A stretch of DNA of 64,000 nt from Novosphingobium sp. (GTDB lineage Bacteria; Pseudomonadota; Alphaproteobacteria; Sphingomonadales; Sphingomonadaceae). Made by a program: the position numbers and the translations under genes. Below the pieces are notes generated by a model. It had not been told where the DNA came from. It made no database searches and saw nothing but the letters and a program-made list of their open reading frames with translations. Location of the stretch: positions 62,001 through 126,000 of the forward strand of contig JAGHZR010000008.1 of NCBI GenBank assembly GCA_017745295.1, read 5' to 3'. Positions 17,844-58,889 of this stretch are shown here, piece after piece; the first letter of the stretch is position 1; every line of letters begins with the position of its first letter.

Positions 17844-18974
17844 ATGCCTGTATCGCGCCTTTCCGATCTCTCCGACAGAACCCTCGCACCCCGCCTCGTC
17901 ATCAAGGTCGGCTCGGCGCTGCTCGTCGGCAAGGAGGGCGTGCGGCGCGCCTGGCTGACCGCGCTGGTCGCCGAGATCGCCGCAGCCCGCGCGCGCGGGC
18001 AGGACGTGATCGTCGTCTCCTCGGGCGCCATCGCGCTGGGCGCGGCGACGCTGGGGCTGGAAAAGGGCGGGCGCGGCTCGCTGGCCGATGCGCAGGCCGC
18101 CGCCGCCGTCGGCCAGATCGCGCTGTCCGGGCTCTGGGCCGAACTGCTCGGCAGCCATGGCCTCACCGCCGCGCAGATGCTGCTGACGCTGGACGACCTC
18201 GAGGATCGCCGCCGCTACCTCAATGTTACCGCCACGCTGACCCGCCTGCTCGATGCGGGCGCGGTGCCGGTCATCAACGAGAACGATTCGGTCGCGACCC
18301 AGGAAATCCGCTTCGGCGACAACGACCGCCTCGCCGCCCGCGTCGCCCAGGCCGCGCAGGCGAGCGCCGTGCTGCTGCTCTCCGATATCGACGGCCTCTA
18401 CGATCGCCACCCCAAGGAGCCGGGCGCCCGGATGATCCCGGTGGTTGAGGGTGTCACCCCGGAAGTCCACGCCATGGCCAGCACCGAATCGAACTCCGGC
18501 ATGGGGTCGGGCGGCATGGTCTCGAAATTGCAGGCCGCCGAGATCGCCGAACTCGCGGGCATCTGCCTCGTCATCGGCAACGGCCAGCACGAGCGCCCGG
18601 TGGCGCGGATCATCGGCGAAGGCATCGGCACGCTGTTCCTGCCGCGCCGCCGCGCAGGCGCGCGCAAGGCCTGGCTCGGCGGACGGCTGCGGCTCAAGGG
18701 CAGCATCCATGTCGACGCCGGTGCCGCCGCCGCCCTCATGCGCGGATCGAGCCTGCTCGCCAAGGGCGTGACCGGGGTGGAAGGCCATTTCGAGCGCGGC
18801 GATCCCGTCGCCATCGTCGATGCCGAGGCCCGCGTCGTCGCCCACGGCCTTTCCGAATACCACGCGGGCGAGTGCGCCGCGATCCGGGGCCTGCACTCCA
18901 GCGAGCAGGCCGAAGTGCTCGGTTATTCGCCCCGTTCATCCGTGGTGCATCGCGATCAGCTTGTTCTGAAATGA
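17844..18974 (+). CDS. proB: Glutamate 5-kinase
   Basis: ProB phosphorylates L-glutamate to gamma-glutamyl phosphate, the committed step of proline synthesis, and is usually feedback-inhibited by proline. The large track ORF from 16902 overlaps the EamA gene in another frame. The family start begins at ATG 17844 (LAPRLVIKVGSALLVGKEGV). The 376-residue protein has the amino-acid kinase domain (1-265; SSGAIALG, VINENDSVAT, FGDNDRLAARVA, SGMGSGGMVSKLQAA) and a C-terminal PUA domain (about 285-370). Its stop overlaps the ATG of the following epimerase gene (ATGA). proA is not next to it. Confidence 0.95.
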   Translation: MPVSRLSDLSDRTLAPRLVIKVGSALLVGKEGVRRAWLTALVAEIAAARARGQDVIVVSSGAIALGAATLGLEKGGRGSLADAQAAAAVGQIALSGLWAELLGSHGLTAAQMLLTLDDLEDRRRYLNVTATLTRLLDAGAVPVINENDSVATQEIRFGDNDRLAARVAQAAQASAVLLLSDIDGLYDRHPKEPGARMIPVVEGVTPEVHAMASTESNSGMGSGGMVSKLQAAEIAELAGICLVIGNGQHERPVARIIGEGIGTLFLPRRRAGARKAWLGGRLRLKGSIHVDAGAAAALMRGSSLLAKGVTGVEGHFERGDPVAIVDAEARVVAHGLSEYHAGECAAIRGLHSSEQAEVLGYSPRSSVVHRDQLVLK

Positions 18975-19894
18975 TGGAATTCGATTACCCCACCATCGCG
19001 CTGACCGGAGCCACCGGCTTCGTCGGCCAGTCGCTGCTCGATGAAGCCGTCGCCGCCGGATACAATGTCCGCGCGCTCACCCGCCGCGAGCAGGAACCGC
19101 GCGAGAACGTCACCTGGGTCCGCGGCGAACTGCGCGACACCGCCTCGCTTTCCGAACTGACGCGCGGGGCCGAGGCGATCCTGCACGTCGCGGGCGTCGT
19201 CAGCGCGCCCGACGCCGCCGGATACGAGGCGGGCAACGTCACCGGCACGCTCAACGTGATCGAGACGGCAGTGGCCAAGGGCATCCGCCGCCTCGTCTTC
19301 GTCTCCTCGCTCTCCGCCCGCGAGCCGGGGCTGTCGGCTTACGGCGCCTCCAAGGCCAAGGCCGAGAAACTCCTGCGCGCCAGCCCGCTCGACTGGACCA
19401 TCGTGCGCCCGCCGGCGATCTACGGCCCGCGCGACCGGGAGATGTTCGAACTGTTCCGCGCCGCGCGCTGGGGTCTGGTGCCGGTGCCGAAAGGCGCGGC
19501 CTCTATGATCCACGTCGAGGACCTCGCGCGCCTGCTCGTGGCGCTGATTCCGGGCGGCGAGGACGTGACCGGCAAACTCTTCGAACCCGACGACGGCAAG
19601 CCGCTCGGCTGGGACAATGCCGAGATGGCCCGCGCCATCGGCACCGCCGTCGGCCGCCGCGTGCGGGTGTTCACCCTCTCGCCGGGGGCGCTGGACAAGG
19701 CGGCGAAAGTGGACCGGTTCCTGCGCGGCGACGGGGCGAAGATGACCGCCGACCGCGCCGGGTATCTCAGCCATCCGGACTGGGTGGTCGGCGCGGAGGC
19801 GGCGGTGCCCGCCTCGATCTGGGAACCGCGCATCGATACGCGCGATGGGCTGCGGGCTACCGCCGAGTGGTATCGGGCTAGCGGGTGGCTTTGA
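18971..19894 (+). CDS. NAD(P)-dependent epimerase/dehydratase family protein
   Basis: This is a 307-residue extended short-chain dehydrogenase (SDR). It has the NAD(P)-binding motif TGATGFVGQ close to the N terminus and AEAILHVAGVVS in place of the DxxD region. Instead of the usual YxxxK it has SAYGASKAKAE, where Y and K are four residues apart, so the catalytic pair is present. Such proteins act on nucleotide sugars, quinones or small carbonyl compounds, and complex I assembly/NDUFA9-like members look similar; no substrate is evident. It starts with ATGATG, the first overlapping the proB stop, so the two are coupled. The gene is followed immediately by the first copy of the three-copy intergenic element. 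Confidence 0.85.
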   Translation: MMEFDYPTIALTGATGFVGQSLLDEAVAAGYNVRALTRREQEPRENVTWVRGELRDTASLSELTRGAEAILHVAGVVSAPDAAGYEAGNVTGTLNVIETAVAKGIRRLVFVSSLSAREPGLSAYGASKAKAEKLLRASPLDWTIVRPPAIYGPRDREMFELFRAARWGLVPVPKGAASMIHVEDLARLLVALIPGGEDVTGKLFEPDDGKPLGWDNAEMARAIGTAVGRRVRVFTLSPGALDKAAKVDRFLRGDGAKMTADRAGYLSHPDWVVGAEAAVPASIWEPRIDTRDGLRATAEWYRASGWL

Positions 19895-20090
19895 AGAAGT
19901 AGGAAGTCCTGGGGGATGATCCCCCAGACCCTCGGAATTTCGACTTTGTGCGCTACCTATCCGTAGTGCGCTCCTTGCGGCGCAGCCAATAAGTCTCCCG
20001 ACACAGCCATGGGTGCGCTACCGAGTTGGCCCGCGTGACCTAGACGGTATTGGGGGTGCAGGGGGGCTAAGCTCCCCTGCTTTTCTTTTT
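19895..20090. repeat. Dispersed ~190-bp intergenic element, copy A
   Basis: This stretch fills the space between two convergent genes (epimerase and fahA). It matches copies B (28180-28358, inverted) and C (56711-56896). It starts with the near-perfect palindrome CTGGGGGAT-G-ATCCCCCAG (19909-19927) and contains the shared core CAGCCAATAAGTCTCCCGAC. It ends with GCAGGGGGGC-TAA-GCTCCCCTGC (20058-20080) followed by TTTTCTTTTT. No ORF is carried. The end hairpin should terminate the proB-epimerase transcript. Confidence 0.9.
20058..20090 (+). terminator. Rho-independent terminator within element copy A
   Basis: A 10-bp stem with one G-U pair and loop TAA is followed by TTTTCTTTTT. It lies 163 bp after the epimerase stop and directly abuts the fahA stop on the other strand. 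Confidence 0.85.
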
Positions 20091-21407
20091 CTACTTCAAG
20101 GAAACCGCTGCCTGCACCACCCCTGCGCAGGGCCCGAACCCGATCGAAACCGCGCCCTCGGCCACGAACCGGCCCGAGAGCGTGAGTTCGTCACCATCCT
20201 CCAGGAACGTGCGCGTCTCGCCGGTCGGCAGCGTCACCTTTTCGCGGCCCGAGCGGGTGATCTCCATCAGGCTGCCTTGCGAACCGTCCTCGGAGCCGGA
20301 GATCGTGCCGGTGCCGAGCAGGTCGCCGGGGTTCATCTCACAGCCGTTGGAGGCGTGGTGCGCCACCATCTGCGCGATCGTCCAGTACATGTTGCCCGCC
20401 GGACCATGGCTGAGGCGCTGGGCGGGGACACCTTCGCCGCGCATCCTTGCGGTGCTGAGGCTGACTTCGAGGTCGAGCGAGAGCGCACCTTGGCGCTGGT
20501 CGGTCTCGTCCCAGAGGTAGGGCAGGGGGCGGGGATCGCCTGCGGGGCGCGGGGCCTGCGCCATGCGGAACGGTGCGAGCGCCTCCATCGTCACGATCCA
20601 GGGCGAGACGGTGGTGAGGAAGTTCTTGGCAAGGAACGGCCCGAGCGGCTGATATTCCCAGGCCTGCACGTCGCGAGCCGACCAGTCGTTGAGCAGCGTC
20701 ACGCCCGCGATGTGATCGAGCGCCTTGTCGATGGGGATCGGTTGGCCGAGCTGGTTGCCCTGCGCCATCCACACGCCGAGTTCCAGTTCGTAGTCCAGTC
20801 TTCCGATCGGGCCGAACGAGGGCGCGTCCGCGTCGGGGGCCTTGGTCTGGCCGTTCGGGCGGATCACCGGGGCGCCGCTAGGGCGCACGGTCGAGGCGCG
20901 GCCGTGGTAGCCGATGGGGACGTGCTTGTAGTTGGGCAGCAGCGGATTGTCGGGGCGGAACAGCTTGCCGATATTGGTAGCGTGGTGGATGCCGACGTAG
21001 AAGTCGGTGTAATCCGCGATCCGCGCGGGCAGGTGGAGCGTCGCCTCGGCCATCGGTACGAGCAGCGGTTCGACTTGCGCACGCTCGGCGGCGCCTTCGA
21101 CCAGCAGCGCGGAGACGCGGCGGCGCAGGGCGCGGCGCGGACCGGAACCGAGGGCAAGCAGCGGGTTGAGCGTCTCACCCGAACCGGCGCGAGCGGCATC
21201 CAGTGCCTCTCCTTCGAGCAGCCCGGATGCGGCAAGCGCGGCGAGGTCGAGGATATGATCCCCGATGGCCACGCCGCCGCGCGCGGTTTCGCCGGGGCGG
21301 GAGAACACGCCGAGCGGCAGGTTCTGGATCGGGAAATCGCCGTGGCCATTCGCACTTTCCACCCAGGATCGCAGCGCGGCGTCATGGGTTTCGTCGATCA
21401 GGGCCAT
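20091..21407 (-). CDS. fahA: Fumarylacetoacetase
   Basis: This enzyme hydrolyses fumarylacetoacetate to fumarate and acetoacetate, the last step of tyrosine and homogentisate catabolism. The 438-residue protein has the N-terminal SH3-like domain (ending near residue 120) and the beta-roll catalytic domain with DYTDFYVGIHHATNIG, KHVPIGYHGR, YELELGVWM and NDWSARDVQAWEYQPLGPF, which carry the metal ligands and catalytic His. The track ORF adds six residues, but ATG 21407 has GAGGAG six bases upstream on the minus strand. Neighbouring hmgA or maiA genes are not visible, so it is not in a complete tyrosine operon here. Confidence 0.96.
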   Translation of the reverse strand: MALIDETHDAALRSWVESANGHGDFPIQNLPLGVFSRPGETARGGVAIGDHILDLAALAASGLLEGEALDAARAGSGETLNPLLALGSGPRRALRRRVSALLVEGAAERAQVEPLLVPMAEATLHLPARIADYTDFYVGIHHATNIGKLFRPDNPLLPNYKHVPIGYHGRASTVRPSGAPVIRPNGQTKAPDADAPSFGPIGRLDYELELGVWMAQGNQLGQPIPIDKALDHIAGVTLLNDWSARDVQAWEYQPLGPFLAKNFLTTVSPWIVTMEALAPFRMAQAPRPAGDPRPLPYLWDETDQRQGALSLDLEVSLSTARMRGEGVPAQRLSHGPAGNMYWTIAQMVAHHASNGCEMNPGDLLGTGTISGSEDGSQGSLMEITRSGREKVTLPTGETRTFLEDGDELTLSGRFVAEGAVSIGFGPCAGVVQAAVSLK

Positions 21408-21478
21408 GGGGTTCTCCTCTTCCATTCGTGCTTGGCGTTATGCCTGGAGCGCATCTCTAGCCGCTTGAAATGGCGGCG

Positions 21479-27807: not shown

Positions 27808-28176
27808 GTGGAATCACGAGGCTGGGATCGGCGCATCGTCGACAAGAAAATCGAATGCCGGGAGGCGGGACTTAACGGTCCGGTCTTCCTCTACGACCTG
27901 TCGGCCGGAGGCTGCATGGTCGAATTCGCCGGGGACGCCCCGGCTATCGGCGCACAGATCGAACTGGAACTCTGCCGCGAACAGCGGGCGAAAGGGGAAG
28001 TGGTCTGGCAGGCTGCCGGCTGCGCAGGCGTGCGCTTCCTCGCCCCGGTCCACGACGCCGTGGTGCGCTATCTGGGCTTCCAGCCGCCGCCGTCAGAGGA
28101 AATGCCGCGCGACCACTTCGGTCGTCTGCTGCCGCCTATCGATGCCGGGGAGCGGCGGTTGGGGCGTCGGCATTGA
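27808..28176 (+). CDS. PilZ-domain protein
   Basis: This 122-residue cytoplasmic protein is made up almost entirely of a PilZ-type domain, which commonly binds cyclic di-GMP. The N-terminal DRRIVDKKIECR takes the place of the RxxxR motif, and YDLSAGGCMVEF holds the [D/N]xSxxG motif, although the spacing and arginines are imperfect, so c-di-GMP binding is uncertain. Related short PilZ proteins in sphingomonads are common and uncharacterised. The GTG start at 27808 follows GGGAGGGG. It lies 61 bp after the CHASE-HWE kinase gene, possibly in the same transcript, and converges on phyR across element copy B. Confidence 0.75.
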   Translation: MESRGWDRRIVDKKIECREAGLNGPVFLYDLSAGGCMVEFAGDAPAIGAQIELELCREQRAKGEVVWQAAGCAGVRFLAPVHDAVVRYLGFQPPPSEEMPRDHFGRLLPPIDAGERRLGRRH

Positions 28177-28179
28177 AGG

Positions 28180-28358
28180 GTGGAAGATGGTAAAACAGGG
28201 GGTCAACACCCCCTGCACCCCCGATACCGTCCAGGTCACGCCTCGCCTATCCGTAGCGCGCCCATGGCTGCGCCGCGAGGTGCGCGCTACGGATAGGTAG
28301 CGCGCGAGGTAGGCATTCCGAGGGTCCGGGGGATCATCCCCCGAAATCTACTTCTTCC
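28180..28358. repeat. Dispersed ~190-bp intergenic element, copy B (inverted)
   Basis: This copy fills the gap between the convergent PilZ gene and phyR, inverted relative to copies A and C. On the minus strand it begins near 28358 with the CGGGGGATGATCCCCCG hairpin and ends with CAGGGGG-N6-CCCCCTG followed by TTTTACC, placing the U-tract end after phyR. It contains a perfect 16-bp inverted repeat, CCTATCCGTAGCGCGC (28246-28261) with its complement at 28282-28297, which is decayed in copies A and C. It lacks the AATAAGTCTCCCGAC part of the core. Confidence 0.88.
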
Positions 28359-28361
28359 TTG

Positions 28362-29156
28362 TTACCCGAGCGGCTTGCTCGACCCAAAGAACAACGCCTG
28401 ACTGATCGCCGCCCGCACGGTGGCTTCCTGGAACGGCTTGGTGACGAGGTAGGTCGGTTCGGGCCGTTCGCCGGTGAGCAGGCGTTCGGGGTAGGCGGTG
28501 ATGAAGATCACCGGCACGTCGCCGAACTTCAGCAGGTCTTCCACCGCTTCGATGCCCGAGCTGCCGTCGGCCAGCTGGATGTCGGCGAGGACGAGTCCGG
28601 CGGGGGAGCGTTCGAAGATGTCGAGCGCCTGGGCGTGGGTGGCGGCGGTGCCGACGACGCGGTGGCCGAGGTCGCTGACGAGGCCTTCGAGCTGCATCGA
28701 GATCAGCGGTTCGTCCTCGATGATAAGCACGTCGGTCGTGCTCTCGCCTTCGATTTCGAGCACGGCCTGGGTCACCAGCGCATCGACGTCCTCGGGCGAG
28801 ACGGCGAGGATCTGGGCGGTATCCTCGCGCGAGAATTCCTCCACGGTGGTCAGCAGCAGGGCCTGGCGGTGCGTGGGGGCGATCGTGGCGAGGCGCGTCT
28901 GCGCCGCCTGTTCGTGGCGGCCGCCTTCGCTGTTCAGGCCCGGTTCCTCGATATGGCCGGTCGCCCAGATGCGGGTGAAGGCGGCATAGAGGGCGGCGCG
29001 GCTGCGAGCGATATCGTCGCGCAGCACCTTGTCGGCCAGGGCGGCTTCCAGCGTGGCGCGCACATACGTGTCGCCGGACTGCTGGGAGCCGGTGAGCGCG
29101 CGCGCGTAGCGGCGAAGGTAGGGCAGTTGGATGGCGATCTGGTCGGAGACGGACAT
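28362..29156 (-). CDS. phyR: General stress response regulator PhyR (sigma-like plus receiver)
   Basis: PhyR is the partner-switching regulator of the alphaproteobacterial general stress response. When its receiver is phosphorylated, its sigma-like domain binds NepR and frees EcfG. The 264-residue protein has an N-terminal sigma2/sigma4-like domain (about 1-130) without the DNA-binding residues of true sigma factors. Its C-terminal receiver has acidic E147/D148, phosphoacceptor Asp192 in VLADIQLADG, Thr220 and Lys240 in VTKPF. ATG 29156 follows AAGGAA; the longer track ORF is not needed. It is convergent with the PilZ gene and divergent from the second sigma gene. Confidence 0.94.
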   Translation of the reverse strand: MSVSDQIAIQLPYLRRYARALTGSQQSGDTYVRATLEAALADKVLRDDIARSRAALYAAFTRIWATGHIEEPGLNSEGGRHEQAAQTRLATIAPTHRQALLLTTVEEFSREDTAQILAVSPEDVDALVTQAVLEIEGESTTDVLIIEDEPLISMQLEGLVSDLGHRVVGTAATHAQALDIFERSPAGLVLADIQLADGSSGIEAVEDLLKFGDVPVIFITAYPERLLTGERPEPTYLVTKPFQEATVRAAISQALFFGSSKPLG

Positions 29157-54073: not shown

Positions 54074-54170
54074 CCTCCCACTCCGCTCAGGCTGAGCTTG
54101 TCGAAGCCCCCCGCGGCGTGGCGCTGTGGCTCCCATCCTTCGACAAGCTCAGGATGAGCGGAGTGGGAGG
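54074..54170. repeat. 33-bp inverted repeat of the TTCGACAAGCTCAGG family
   Basis: The left arm (54074-54106) and right arm (54138-54170) are reverse complements over 33 bases with two mismatches, around a 31-nt spacer. The core CTTCGACAAGCTCAGGATGAGCGG belongs to the same family as the units near murB (2747). The right arm ends 42 bp before the stop of the convergent minus-strand gene at 54213. Confidence 0.88.
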
Positions 54171-55337: not shown

Positions 55338-56711
55338 ATGGAATTTTCACGCCGTATCGCGTTGCTCGCCGCCGCTTCCGCGCCGCTGGCCGGGTTCGCC
55401 GCAAGGGTGGGTGCGCAAGTCGCTGGTCCTTCGGCTGCCCTCGAACCCGCCCCCGGCGCCGCGCTTGCGCCGCGCCCGCCGATGGGCTGGAACAGCTGGA
55501 ACAGCTTTGCCGGGACCATCACCGAAACACAGGCCCTCGAAACCGCCGCGATCATGCGCGAGAAGCTGCTGCCCTTCGGCTACGACGTCTTCACCGTCGA
55601 TATCCAGTGGTACGAGCCGGAGGCCAAGAGCTACACCTACAACGCCAACCCGGTCCCGGCGCTCGACGCCCATGGCCGGGTGATCCCCGCCCCGAACCGC
55701 TTCCCTTCGTCGAAAGGCGGGAAGGGCTTCGCGCCGCTCGCCGCCAAAGTCCACGCCATGGGCATGAAGTTCGGCATCCACGTCATGCGCGGCATCCCGC
55801 GCCACGCCGTGAAGCTCAACCTCCCCGTGCTGGGCACCAGGCTGCGCGCGCAGGACATCGCCGATACCTCCAGCGTGTGCTCCTGGAACCCCGACATGTA
55901 CGGCGTCGACATGAGCAAGCCCGGCGCCCAGGAATACTACGACAGCGTGTTCCAGCTCTACGCCTCCTGGGGCGTCGATTTCGTCAAGATGGATGACATG
56001 AGCCGTCCCTACGACGCCCACGCGCCGGAGATCGAGGCCGCCGCCAAGGCCATCGCCCGCTGCGGCCGCCCCATGGTGCTGAGCCTCTCCCCCGGCGAAA
56101 CCCCCGTCCTTCGCGGCGCCCACGTCCGCCAGCACGCGCAGATGTGGCGCATCTCCGACGACTTCTGGGACGAGTGGGCGCAACTCCACGCCCAATTCAC
56201 GCGCCTCGAAAACTGGACGCCGTTCCGCGGCCCCGGCTCCTGGCCCGACGCCGACATGCTCCCCCTCGGCCGCCTCGCGCTGGGCGACCGCGACACCCGC
56301 TTCAACCCCGACGAACAGCGCACGCTGATGACGCTCTGGTCGATCGCCCGCTCGCCGCTCATCATGGGCGGCGACCTGCGCCACCTCGACGCACCGACAC
56401 TGGCGCTGCTGACCAACCGCGAAGTGCTGGCGGTGAACCAGTCGAGCACCGACAATACGCCGCTGTTCCTTGACGACGGCACCAAGGTCTGGACGGCGCG
56501 GGCCGAGGGCAGCACGGATCGCTACGTGGCGCTGTTTAACGTGTCCGACCAGCCGCGGGAGGTGAGCGTGGCGCTCTCGTTGCTTGGTCTCGGTGGCAAG
56601 GCGTCGGTGCGCGATTTGTGGGAAGGAAAGGACCTTGGCGTCGTCGAAGGGCGCGTTTCGGTGCGGCTTGCTTCGCATGGGGCAGGGTTGTTCAGGGTGA
56701 AGAGCATTTAA
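55338..56711 (+). CDS. Glycoside hydrolase family 27 (alpha-galactosidase-like)
   Basis: This 457-residue exported glycosidase is likely to cleave alpha-galactosides or related sugars. The N-terminal signal SRRIALLAAASAPLAGF is Tat-like. The catalytic barrel starts PPMGWNSWNSFAG (49-61), a GH27 hallmark. It has the nucleophile Asp in DFVKMDDMSR (about 219) and an acid/base Asp in RISDDFWDEW (about 274). A C-terminal beta-sandwich (about 365-457) follows. Substrate specificity cannot be told from reading (alpha-galactosidase, N-acetylgalactosaminidase or arabinopyranosidase). ATG 55338 follows AAGGA. It is followed by element copy C. Confidence 0.88.
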   Translation: MEFSRRIALLAAASAPLAGFAARVGAQVAGPSAALEPAPGAALAPRPPMGWNSWNSFAGTITETQALETAAIMREKLLPFGYDVFTVDIQWYEPEAKSYTYNANPVPALDAHGRVIPAPNRFPSSKGGKGFAPLAAKVHAMGMKFGIHVMRGIPRHAVKLNLPVLGTRLRAQDIADTSSVCSWNPDMYGVDMSKPGAQEYYDSVFQLYASWGVDFVKMDDMSRPYDAHAPEIEAAAKAIARCGRPMVLSLSPGETPVLRGAHVRQHAQMWRISDDFWDEWAQLHAQFTRLENWTPFRGPGSWPDADMLPLGRLALGDRDTRFNPDEQRTLMTLWSIARSPLIMGGDLRHLDAPTLALLTNREVLAVNQSSTDNTPLFLDDGTKVWTARAEGSTDRYVALFNVSDQPREVSVALSLLGLGGKASVRDLWEGKDLGVVEGRVSVRLASHGAGLFRVKSI

Positions 56712-56896
56712 GGAGGAAGTCCTGGGGGATGATCCCCCAGACCCTCAAAATGTCAGCGTCGCGCGCGGCTTGACGTTCTGCGCTCTCTGCGGCGCAGCCA
56801 ATAAGTCTCCCGACGCGACCATGGGCGCGCAACGGATAGGCTGGGCGTGACCTGGACGGTATTGGGGTGCAGGGGTGTTAACCCCTGCTTCTTCCC
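56711..56896. repeat. Dispersed ~190-bp intergenic element, copy C
   Basis: This copy fills the gap between the convergent GH27 and lytic transglycosylase genes, in the same orientation as copy A. It begins with CTGGGGGAT-G-ATCCCCCAG (56722-56740), has the core CAGCCAATAAGTCTCCCGAC (56796-56815), and ends with GCAGGGGT-GTTA-ACCCCTGC (56869-56888) followed by TTCTTCCC. It is closest to copy A along its length. Confidence 0.9.
56869..56896 (+). terminator. Terminator hairpin within element copy C
   Basis: A perfect 8-bp stem, GCAGGGGT / ACCCCTGC, with loop GTTA is followed by TTCTTCCCTT. It should end the GH27 transcript. Confidence 0.7.
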
Positions 56897-56912: not shown

Positions 56913-58889
56913 TCACCCCGGCGCCCGCTTCCCGATCAACTGCGTAAGCGGCGTACTCCCGCGATAGCCCGACTGGGTCGGATACATCGACTCATAGACC
57001 ACGGCGTTCTCCAGCACGCGCTGGATATAGTTCTTGGTCTCGTAGATCGGGATCTGCTCCAGCCAGTCGATCCAGTCGACTGCGCCGGTGCGGGGGTCGC
57101 CGTTGGCCGCCAGCCACTTGTTCACATTGCCTGCGCCTGCGTTGTAGGCGCCCACCGCCAGCGGCAGCGAGCCGCCGAAGTAGTTGCGCATGCGGGTGAA
57201 GTAGGCGTCGCCGAGGCGGATGTTGTAGGTGGCGTCGCTGACCAGCTGGTTCTGGTCGTAGGCGAGGCCGAGCTTGCCCGCCTGTTCGCGCGCGGTGGCG
57301 GGCATGAGCTGCATCAGGCCGCGAGCTCCGGCGTGGCTGAGTGCGTTCTGGGCGAACTGGCTCTCCTGCCGGGTGAGGGCGTGGACCATGGCGAAGTCGG
57401 CGCCCGGCGGCATGGGGATCAGCGGGTAGGCGATCTGGCCGAAGTCCTGGTAGCCGTCGCCGTGGGCGCTCTGGCCGAGGATCACGGCAAGGTCGCGGCG
57501 GCCGATGTCGCGGGCGAGTTCGGCGACGAGGACGTGGTCGCTCTCGCTCTGGGCCTGGTCGGAGATTTCGCGGAAGAACTGGACGGTGGTGCGCCAGTCG
57601 CCGTCGCGGGCGACGTCACGCACGGCATTGGTCAGCGGCTTGGCGAAGAAGGCGCTGCGTTCGGCCTGTGTCGGCACGCCGCGTGGGCGGGTGTCGAGGT
57701 CGGGCAGGGGGCGGCCCAGCCGTTCGAGCGCGAGCTGGCCGTAGAAGTAGTGCGGATAGGCGGCGGCCATCTGGAAGTAGCGGTTGGCGCCCGCAGTGTC
57801 CCCGGCCTTGGCGAGCGCGCGGCCTGCCCAGTAGAAGCCCTTGGAGCGGGTGCCCGGCGTTTGCGCGGCGGCGCCGTAGCGGTAGAACAGCGGCGCGGCG
57901 CGGCGGGCGTCGCCCAGTTGCCAGAGCGCCTTGGTGCCGCCCAGCCAGACGAGCGTGGTATAGTCGTCGCGCAGGCGGAACGAGAGCTGGCTGATGTCGG
58001 TGCCGGGGGCGAAGGCGTCGTCGATGCCGCCGGCGATCCGCACCGCCGAATCCGCGCCCGCGCCCTTGGCGGCGGTGAGCAGTTCGCGCACCCACTTCTC
58101 CGGCTCGGGCACCGGCGTCGTCAGGGTGGGGCGATTGGACAGGAGGGCGATCTCGGCGGGCAGGTTGCCGCTCTTGCGGGCCTGCACGGCGCGGGCGTAG
58201 ATATAGCCCGCGTCGGCGTTCATCTGCGGGGTCAAGGTCAGGCCCAGCGTGCCGGGGGGCGAGCCTTGCAGCATCGTCAGCCGCTCCATGAACAAGGCGC
58301 GGCGCTCGGCGGAGACGAAGGAGATCTGCCGCTCGGCTTGCGCGGTCTCGCCCTGCCAGAGCAGGCGGTCCATGCGGGTGTCGTGGTCGGCTGTGGTGAG
58401 GGCGCCGCGATATGTCGCGAGGATCGCTGCCTCATCGCTCGGCGCCAGAGTGCCGCCGCGCCAGGCGGCGAGGGCGCGCTGTTGGGCTTCGGGGCGGCGT
58501 AAGGTGGTCAGCGCCGTGGCATAGCGCCCGGCGGCCTGGTTCGAGAGCGGCGGATAGCGGGTGAAGAACGCGACCACGGAATTGGCGTCGGGCGACTGGC
58601 TCACCAGCGCGCGCTCGGCCGAACCGCGAATCTTGTCGGCCTGCGGATAGCCGGGATAGGTCAGCAGAAAGCTGGAATAGCTGCCGAAATCGAACCCGTC
58701 CGAGGCCACGAGCTGGCGCCAGCGGTCGATCGACTGGTGGACGGCCATGTCGTGCGACTGCATGGAACGCGCCTTCGCAAGGTCCCATTCGCGGCCGTCC
58801 TGAGCGGCTGCGGGGGTCCCGAAAGCGATGCCGAATGCGGCGGTCGAAGCAAGCAAGACGAGGGGGGCAACACGCTGCATGCTGGACAT
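56913..58889 (-). CDS. Soluble lytic murein transglycosylase (GH23, Slt-like)
   Basis: This periplasmic enzyme cuts the MurNAc-GlcNAc bond of peptidoglycan to give 1,6-anhydro ends. The 658-residue protein has a signal (MQRVAPLVLLASTAAFGIAFG), a long alpha-helical superhelical domain (about 60-460) like the doughnut of Slt70, and a C-terminal catalytic domain. The catalytic domain has the Glu509 motif LTRQESQFAQNALSHAGARGLMQLMPATA and the AYNAGAGNVNKWL signature. The start is set at ATG 58889 (ATG 58880 also possible); the track start adds 21 residues with no signal character. It is divergent from dapA, 80 bp apart. Confidence 0.92.
   Translation of the reverse strand: MSSMQRVAPLVLLASTAAFGIAFGTPAAAQDGREWDLAKARSMQSHDMAVHQSIDRWRQLVASDGFDFGSYSSFLLTYPGYPQADKIRGSAERALVSQSPDANSVVAFFTRYPPLSNQAAGRYATALTTLRRPEAQQRALAAWRGGTLAPSDEAAILATYRGALTTADHDTRMDRLLWQGETAQAERQISFVSAERRALFMERLTMLQGSPPGTLGLTLTPQMNADAGYIYARAVQARKSGNLPAEIALLSNRPTLTTPVPEPEKWVRELLTAAKGAGADSAVRIAGGIDDAFAPGTDISQLSFRLRDDYTTLVWLGGTKALWQLGDARRAAPLFYRYGAAAQTPGTRSKGFYWAGRALAKAGDTAGANRYFQMAAAYPHYFYGQLALERLGRPLPDLDTRPRGVPTQAERSAFFAKPLTNAVRDVARDGDWRTTVQFFREISDQAQSESDHVLVAELARDIGRRDLAVILGQSAHGDGYQDFGQIAYPLIPMPPGADFAMVHALTRQESQFAQNALSHAGARGLMQLMPATAREQAGKLGLAYDQNQLVSDATYNIRLGDAYFTRMRNYFGGSLPLAVGAYNAGAGNVNKWLAANGDPRTGAVDWIDWLEQIPIYETKNYIQRVLENAVVYESMYPTQSGYRGSTPLTQLIGKRAPG

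Follow-up and report, generated by a model that had tools for sequence, protein, structure and literature searches.

The window analysed here, that is, the whole stretch of 64,000 nucleotides, contains three gaps of 185–201 bp between tail-to-tail genes, each filled by one copy (A, B or C) of a non-coding element about 185–195 bp long; sequence comparison within the window unites the three copies in one family. The copies, their parts and the genes that enter them are listed below, with the basis of the assignments in brackets.

18971..19894, + strand: gene of the NAD-dependent epimerase/dehydratase family, entering copy A from the left (gene call, Pfam)
19895..20090, + strand: copy A, complete, occupying the entire gap that separates the stop codons of two convergent genes
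19909..19927, + strand: hairpin 1 of copy A, CTGGGGGATGATCCCCCAG (base pairs and a compensatory T-A/C-G change across copies)
19928..20057, + strand: central imperfect palindromic rod of copy A (folding of copies)
19983..20002, + strand: conserved apical core of copy A, CAGCCAATAAGTCTCCCGAC (alignment)
20058..20080, + strand: hairpin 2 of copy A, GCAGGGGGGCTAAGCTCCCCTGC (folding, terminator site prediction)
20081..20090, + strand: T-tract of copy A, TTTTCTTTTT, for the gene entering from the left, the canonical tail of an intrinsic terminator
20091..21425, − strand: fumarylacetoacetase gene, entering copy A from the right (gene call, Pfam)
27808..28176, + strand: PilZ domain protein gene, entering copy B (gene call, Pfam)
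28180..28358, − strand: copy B, inverted in the window, lacking 21 bp of the apical core, with a nearly perfect rod left
28196..28215, − strand: hairpin 2 of copy B, CAGGGGGTGTTGACCCCCTG, then TTTT (sequence)
28327..28343, − strand: hairpin 1 of copy B, CGGGGGATGATCCCCCG (sequence)
28362..29156, − strand: PhyR-type response regulator gene, entering copy B (gene call, Pfam)
55482..56711, + strand: alpha-galactosidase (melibiase) gene, entering copy C (gene call, Pfam)
56711..56896, + strand: copy C, complete
56722..56740, + strand: hairpin 1 of copy C (sequence)
56869..56888, + strand: hairpin 2 of copy C, short variant GCAGGGGTGTTAACCCCTGC (sequence, alignment)
56913..58889, − strand: lytic transglycosylase (SLT domain) gene, entering copy C (gene call, Pfam)

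Copies A and C are 80% identical over 186 bp, and copies A and B are 74% identical, with the 21-bp segment absent from B; the stop codon of the alpha-galactosidase gene overlaps the first base of the reported copy C. Alignment confirmed the proposal of an earlier note that the three copies share ends, spacing and core (the core missing in B) and constitute one family, and Pfam matches support the gene pairs that place all three copies tail to tail. The placement of the copies given in that note also stands, but its reading of the sequence has been amended: copy A has TGACCTAGACGGTATTGGGG and copy B has TGACCTGGACGGTATCGGGG. The gap in copy B has the shape of a deletion between two CAGCCAT direct repeats and looks like the result of slippage between them; the same 21-bp segment is also absent from another copy, L038.

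The anatomy of the element was derived from an alignment of 40 copies and from the folding of 28 complete copies, carried out without a shuffle control. RNAalifold applied to a mixed alignment of 36 sequences drops most of the rod because the length variants of hairpin 2 are misaligned, and the 28-copy alignment was preferred. The general plan comprises hairpin 1, a long imperfect palindromic rod, hairpin 2 and a T-rich tail, with the end hairpins flanked by GTCC/GACC and GGTGC/TTTT. The consensus of hairpin 1 is C[T/C]GGGGGATGATCCCCC[A/G]G; of the 28 copies, 15 close it with T-A and 12 with C-G, which represents a double change. The rod contains an outer stem, ACCCTCG..TGTC / GAC.GTA.TGGGGGT, and inner arms that read ACCTATCCGT / ACGGATAGGT in the consensus; the apical core CAGCCAATAAGTCTCCCGAC served as a search pattern. 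The stem of hairpin 2, GCAGGGG..CCCCTGC, is kept in all sequence versions (GGCTATGCT, TGTTAA, CGATGG and TGTTGA).

The right end of copy A, where the G+C-rich GCAGGGG...CCCCTGC hairpin is followed by the T-tract, is a canonical terminator-like site with the features of an intrinsic terminator, so that the hairpin and U-tract described earlier at one end of the element agree with the prediction. Hairpin 2 was matched by pattern in 34 of the 40 copies, with a mean of 4.7 T in the first eight tail bases, and hairpin 1 in 32 copies, with a mean of 3.1 T in eight tail bases. The left end thus also carries a hairpin, but its outward tail on the − strand (GACTTCCTACTTCT in copy A) is pyrimidine-rich and not a true T-run; no terminator site was reported on the − strand at copy A. 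With few T residues, the left end may act as a weak terminator. Since the right tail is canonical and the left one merely pyrimidine-rich, the right-end terminator is firm as far as sequence goes, and termination in the opposite direction is only probable.

A BLAST search with one copy against its own genome (4.84 Mb, 44 contigs), as the earlier note had proposed, revealed 42 matches corresponding to about 40 dispersed copies; the best non-self match has E = 3e-65, and the similarity within the family is far beyond chance. To assign the gene context, genes were called from codon usage, with the window as the training sequence. Convergent gene pairs flank 29 of the 40 copies, ten lie between codirectional genes and one, L036 (called from sequence only), lies between divergent genes; convergent spaces make up 17–19% of the intergenic space, and the excess of the element in them is significant (p~1e-13). 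The codirectional copies occur in both orientations (six and four), and most of them abut the stop of the upstream gene. A stop codon is faced by 68 of the 80 element ends, and the median distance between it and the hairpin core is 14 bp. The remaining 12 ends face a start codon, always at a distance of at least 44 bp. A further set of 39 loci, mainly from genome G005 and partly from G115, G066 and G075, includes 33 convergent ones. The suggestion that the element always lies between convergent genes therefore holds for the three window copies and becomes a strong preference genome-wide, while its non-coding nature is well supported by the stop-to-stop placement.

A scan of the genus found matches at E<=1e-4 in 25 of 196 Novosphingobium genomes. 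Near-complete copies are present in about ten: G000, which is the genome carrying copies A, B and C, G066 (N. lindaniclasticum LE124), G075 (N. panipatense P5:ABC), G113, G096 (Novosphingobium sp. ST904), G097, G005 ('Sphingomonas' sp. IC081), G115, G050 and G007. The numbers of matches are 34 in G005, 37 in G115, 35 in G066, 22 in G075, 13 in G113 and 10 each in G096 and G097. Other Novosphingobium species contain elements of the same plan with different middles (hairpin - ACCCC..TTA.TGTC ... GACAGTAATGGGGGT - hairpin - tail). The family is limited to a single Novosphingobium clade. Among 401 genomes of the bacterial family (96 genera), a single match outside the genus was found, in a MAG labelled Porphyrobacter; this match was counted as contamination because the MAG is 6% contaminated and the flanks are 85–92% identical to N. 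lindaniclasticum contigs. The matching loci (L085 and L089, MAG Porphyrobacter sp. BIN49, G514) lie among Novosphingobium-like genes on the contig, which is likely mis-binned. Carriage by plasmids or phages was rejected, with no similar DNA in either collection, and no published Novosphingobium repeat of this kind was found in the literature searched. On the G005:C1 sequence (3,910,009 bases) the copies are unevenly spread (Rayleigh p~0.004), being dense at 2.5–3.4 Mb and absent between 1.19 and 2.25 Mb; the copy-free stretch is located roughly opposite hemE at 3.48 Mb, a gene possibly close to the origin.

Matching of the copy flanks to large blocks of G066, G075 and G097, plus extra loci, revealed gene pairs with the element in some alleles (filled) and without it in others (empty). 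The locus of copy C is filled in G066, G075, G096 and G097, is filled with an internal deletion in G113, and is empty in G005, G115 and G050. Many sites are occupied in several species, so much of the family is old. In empty alleles, the same two genes mostly lie about 7–90 bp apart, and the spacers usually contain ordinary hairpin terminators, which are unrelated in sequence and differ from species to species; any trace of the native terminator is usually missing from filled alleles. At L004, the sequence up to and including the native A-tract AAAAAAGTGAAAG is common to the filled allele of G000 and the empty allele of G113, and nearly so to the empty allele of G075; after AAAAAAGTGAAAG, the empty alleles continue with a native hairpin or other sequence and the filled allele with hairpin 1, and the element therefore seems to have appropriated the T-tract that belonged to the terminator of the opposite gene. 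Copies are also lost: internal deletions were found in G066 at L013, in G097 at L014 and in G113 at copy C, and only a remnant is left in G075 at L016. In several species, the middle has been deleted or replaced while the hairpins and tails remain, which suggests that the ends matter more than the middle.

MITEs have terminal inverted repeats of 15–30 bp, like those of degenerate IS, and usually a target duplication. The element could be a MITE-like non-autonomous transposon, moved by a lost or absent transposase acting on the inverted ends and inserting mostly behind stop codons, with later deletion of the native spacer and with termination being incidental. It resembles MITEs in size, in its non-coding nature, in its palindromic ends (imperfect inverted hairpins) and in the dispersal of copies of fixed length; in addition, the copies at L002, L026 and L029, as well as that at L004 on its left side, sit behind the T-tract of a retained native terminator, and the L222 site, with the element in G005 and without it in the close strain G115, is one clear case of presence and absence. 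However, no target-site duplication was found in the filled/empty pairs examined, and at L004 the native sequence has been replaced rather than interrupted, while both a duplication of 4 bp (CTAG) and a precise empty site were found for a genuine MITE in the same data. Unlike MITEs, the element also has no IS parent among the own-genome matches to the 196-bp query (a search that misses diverged parents and those of other strains), as these matches include neither an autonomous IS with the same ends nor a larger element with both ends around an ORF. Finally, a further process would be needed for the mosaic copies and the non-orthologous sequence at orthologous loci described below. The missing duplications and the lack of an IS with the same ends speak against simple transposition, which we regard as unlikely, though conceivable; the description of the element in the earlier note as a non-autonomous mobile element was not borne out by the pairs compared, by the own-genome matches or by a search for RAYT, whereas the check for empty sites proposed there did reveal such sites.

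The comparison of G005 and G115, where the flanking genes are 97–99.7% identical, is indicative of exchange between copies. The element pairs L233/L056, L238/L148 and L244/L248 are 98% identical, like their flanks, apart from a 45-bp deletion in the L244/L248 pair. The pairs L239/L252 and L240/L155, however, are only 87% and 88% identical, and 20 of the 22 differences between L240 and L155 fall in the left half (p = 4e-5); some copies are patchworks between two close strains. No donor of the converted patch was found for L155 of G115, the best matches outside the locus being 84–94% identical. Non-orthologous sequence also occupies orthologous loci in more distant genomes: in only 9 of 27 cases is a copy of G066 or G075 closest to the G000 copy at its own locus, which ranks as low as 28 despite clearly orthologous flanking genes. 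As same-locus copies are seldom nearest relatives, vertical descent alone should not explain the pattern, and conversion or repeated replacement can; independent insertions at hot spots or allelic exchange with unsampled strains could also produce such a mismatch.

Allelic exchange might even be the only process at work now, with old filled and empty alleles passed on by homologous recombination of the flanking genes and with no movement between loci. The breakpoints of different alleles do fall at gene ends, and the element sites are largely common to the close strains G005 and G115 and to G096 and G097; on the other hand, the patches within elements between flanks 98–99.7% identical are a poor fit, and the original spread to about 40 loci is not easily explained, which makes this account rather improbable.

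The explanation towards which we lean, with modest confidence, is that the element is a clade-private dispersed terminator cassette, which takes the place of native terminators and whose copies evolve by converting or replacing one another ectopically; the 11 of 40 copies located outside convergent spaces count against it. Transcription of a gene entering from the left would proceed through the rod and end at hairpin 2 and the T-tract, and that of a gene entering from the right would end at hairpin 1 and the pyrimidine tract; as each direction would stop within the element, one element would serve two convergent genes, whose 3' untranslated ends would overlap and be complementary. An arriving copy would replace the native terminator of the gene pair and not merely adjoin it. 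Resident copies would exchange sequence with other copies or be overwritten by them, through ectopic gene conversion or repeated replacement, and the family would thus stay alike while the gene neighbourhoods diverge; copies would disappear through internal deletions, with a hairpin and a tail left over. The termination activity is a prediction, and for the same-locus pattern we infer conversion rather than repeated insertion. The spreading terminator module, tolerated where it is harmless, that had been suggested as the other possibility agrees well with the occupation of about 40 loci, the replacement of native terminators and the polymorphic presence between species.

Another possibility is a duplicated structured regulatory or antisense RNA, in which the rod, transcribed in both directions, would be the functional part and termination would be secondary. 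The long conserved rod with its conserved apical core would suit such a role, and complementary 3' ends are expected from convergent transcription; nevertheless, a search of Rfam 15 was negative at both the gathering and the permissive level (at best E = 0.29, to an unrelated sRNA), a promoter-like site was not found near copy A, and the middles have been lost or replaced in several species with hairpins and tails kept, all of which leaves this reading very improbable. It is scarcely credible that the element is a REP-type repeat (a REPIN/BIME-like hairpin pair) moved by RAYT or another IS200-like transposase, even though two inverted hairpins surround a spacer and the 3'-end placement is that of GTAG/CGTC REPs, including those of Sphingomonas wittichii (PMC3733652), since Y1_Tnp (PF01797) was matched in none of nine genomes, carriers included, while the control genomes scored, and since a length of about 185 bp and end hairpins without a GTAG or CGTC tag contrast with units of 20–40 bp.

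REPs of the GTAG and CGTC superfamilies are single palindromes of 20–40 bp, one end of which bears the GTAG or CGTC tag; in the convergent spaces of S. wittichii and P. entomophila, no more than 20 bp separate most copies from each of the two ORF ends, and the stop codon is frequently provided by GTAG units (PMC3733652). The element resembles these repeats in being palindromic, intergenic, presumably transcribed, close to ORF 3' ends and often convergent, and differs from them in its length, two untagged end hairpins, long rod, tails and lack of RAYT, the gene expected in the genome for GTAG types. By description, it is similar to ERIC and to other MITE-like interspersed palindromes, such as RUP, NEMIS, Bcr1, YPAL and Nezha (listed in PMC3733652), which are non-coding, 70–300 bp long, located near coding sequences and able to form a long secondary structure. 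The element departs from REPs in size, tag and transposase and from MITEs in the duplication; of the earlier concern that it might be a known REP/MITE family, the REP part fails on tag, size and, in the nine genomes searched, RAYT, and no named repeat family fitted among those tested. Like the uptake-signal terminators of Neisseria and Pasteurellaceae, it is a dispersed repeat apparently co-opted as a gene-end terminator hairpin, but those are repeats of 9–11 bases in about a thousand or more copies (PMC1852404), while the element is a module of about 185 bp in tens of copies and is not known to function in uptake. Stable stem-loops concentrate at 3' ends and in convergent spaces, where they are able to stop both genes (PMC1590033); the hairpins of the element are found in the same places, whereas ordinary bidirectional terminators consist of one short hairpin, unrelated from locus to locus, as in the empty alleles here. 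The element is a variant among interspersed palindromic repeats rather than a system of a new kind.

It has long been asked how short palindromic repeats that have no transposase can spread and yet remain alike. For REPs, Higgins et al. suggested gene conversion in 1988 (cited in PMC3733652). Conversion in REPs is hard to see; here it is made directly testable by two chromosomes of about 98% identity, in which some element pairs are unchanged and others are patchworks, and by the gene pairs that have a filled allele in some species and an empty one in others. If copies overwrite one another, the stop signal of a gene would often not be inherited with the gene. Tentatively, and as a possibility rather than a probability, terminators might constitute a self-homogenising repeat family, in which a double-terminator cassette spreads without a transposase via non-allelic recombination and takes the place of native terminators at gene ends, the stop signal being inherited independently of the gene. 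The data suggest a modular exchange of terminators within this clade; dozens of genes, among them phyR in the window, whose family functions as a general stress-response regulator, would be affected in their read-through and 3' ends.

Several other repeats were encountered at the element loci. Two of them, CGTCATTGCGAGCG.. and CGTCATCCCCGCGAAGG.., look like CGTC REPs, and in G084 and G085 (L067, L069), where relatives of the element are about 275 bp long, the apical loop of their rod contains a CGTC-type repeat, CGTCATTGCGAGCGTAGCGAAGCAATCCAG. The REP-like sequence CCCTTCGACAAGCTCAGGA is located exactly in the loop of hairpin 1 at L018 (G000) and at L225, L228, L237, L239, L242 and L244 (G005), and the related TTATCCTGAGCTTCGCCGAAGGG in the loop of hairpin 2 at L034 and, slightly changed, at L259; such repeats appear to insert into terminator loops. 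The same repeat as in the hairpin loops, CTTCGACAAGCTCAGGATGAGCGG, is found in the window at 54074–54170 (an inverted pair) and at 2808–2833. A palindromic MITE of about 255 bp, GTCGTAAACTCATAAACGGCACCATCGAGG...CCTCGATGGTGCCGTTTATGAGTTTACGAC, has inserted into the element at GTGACCTAG^ACGGTA, where CTAG is duplicated as the target site; it occupies L241:1336-1590 (G005:C1:3763830-3764085) and also occurs at L231, L237, L250 and L251. As it is present in G005 and absent at the same site of G115 (L246), it has moved recently. At the convergent site of L222, G115 has an unrelated palindromic repeat, CGTCATCCCCGCGAAGGCGGGG, instead (L245), and in G005 the upstream gene apparently takes its last residues and stop codon from the end of the element. 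About 1 kb of other DNA, probably an insertion sequence, splits the copy at L247 (G115:C1:2192706-2193725).
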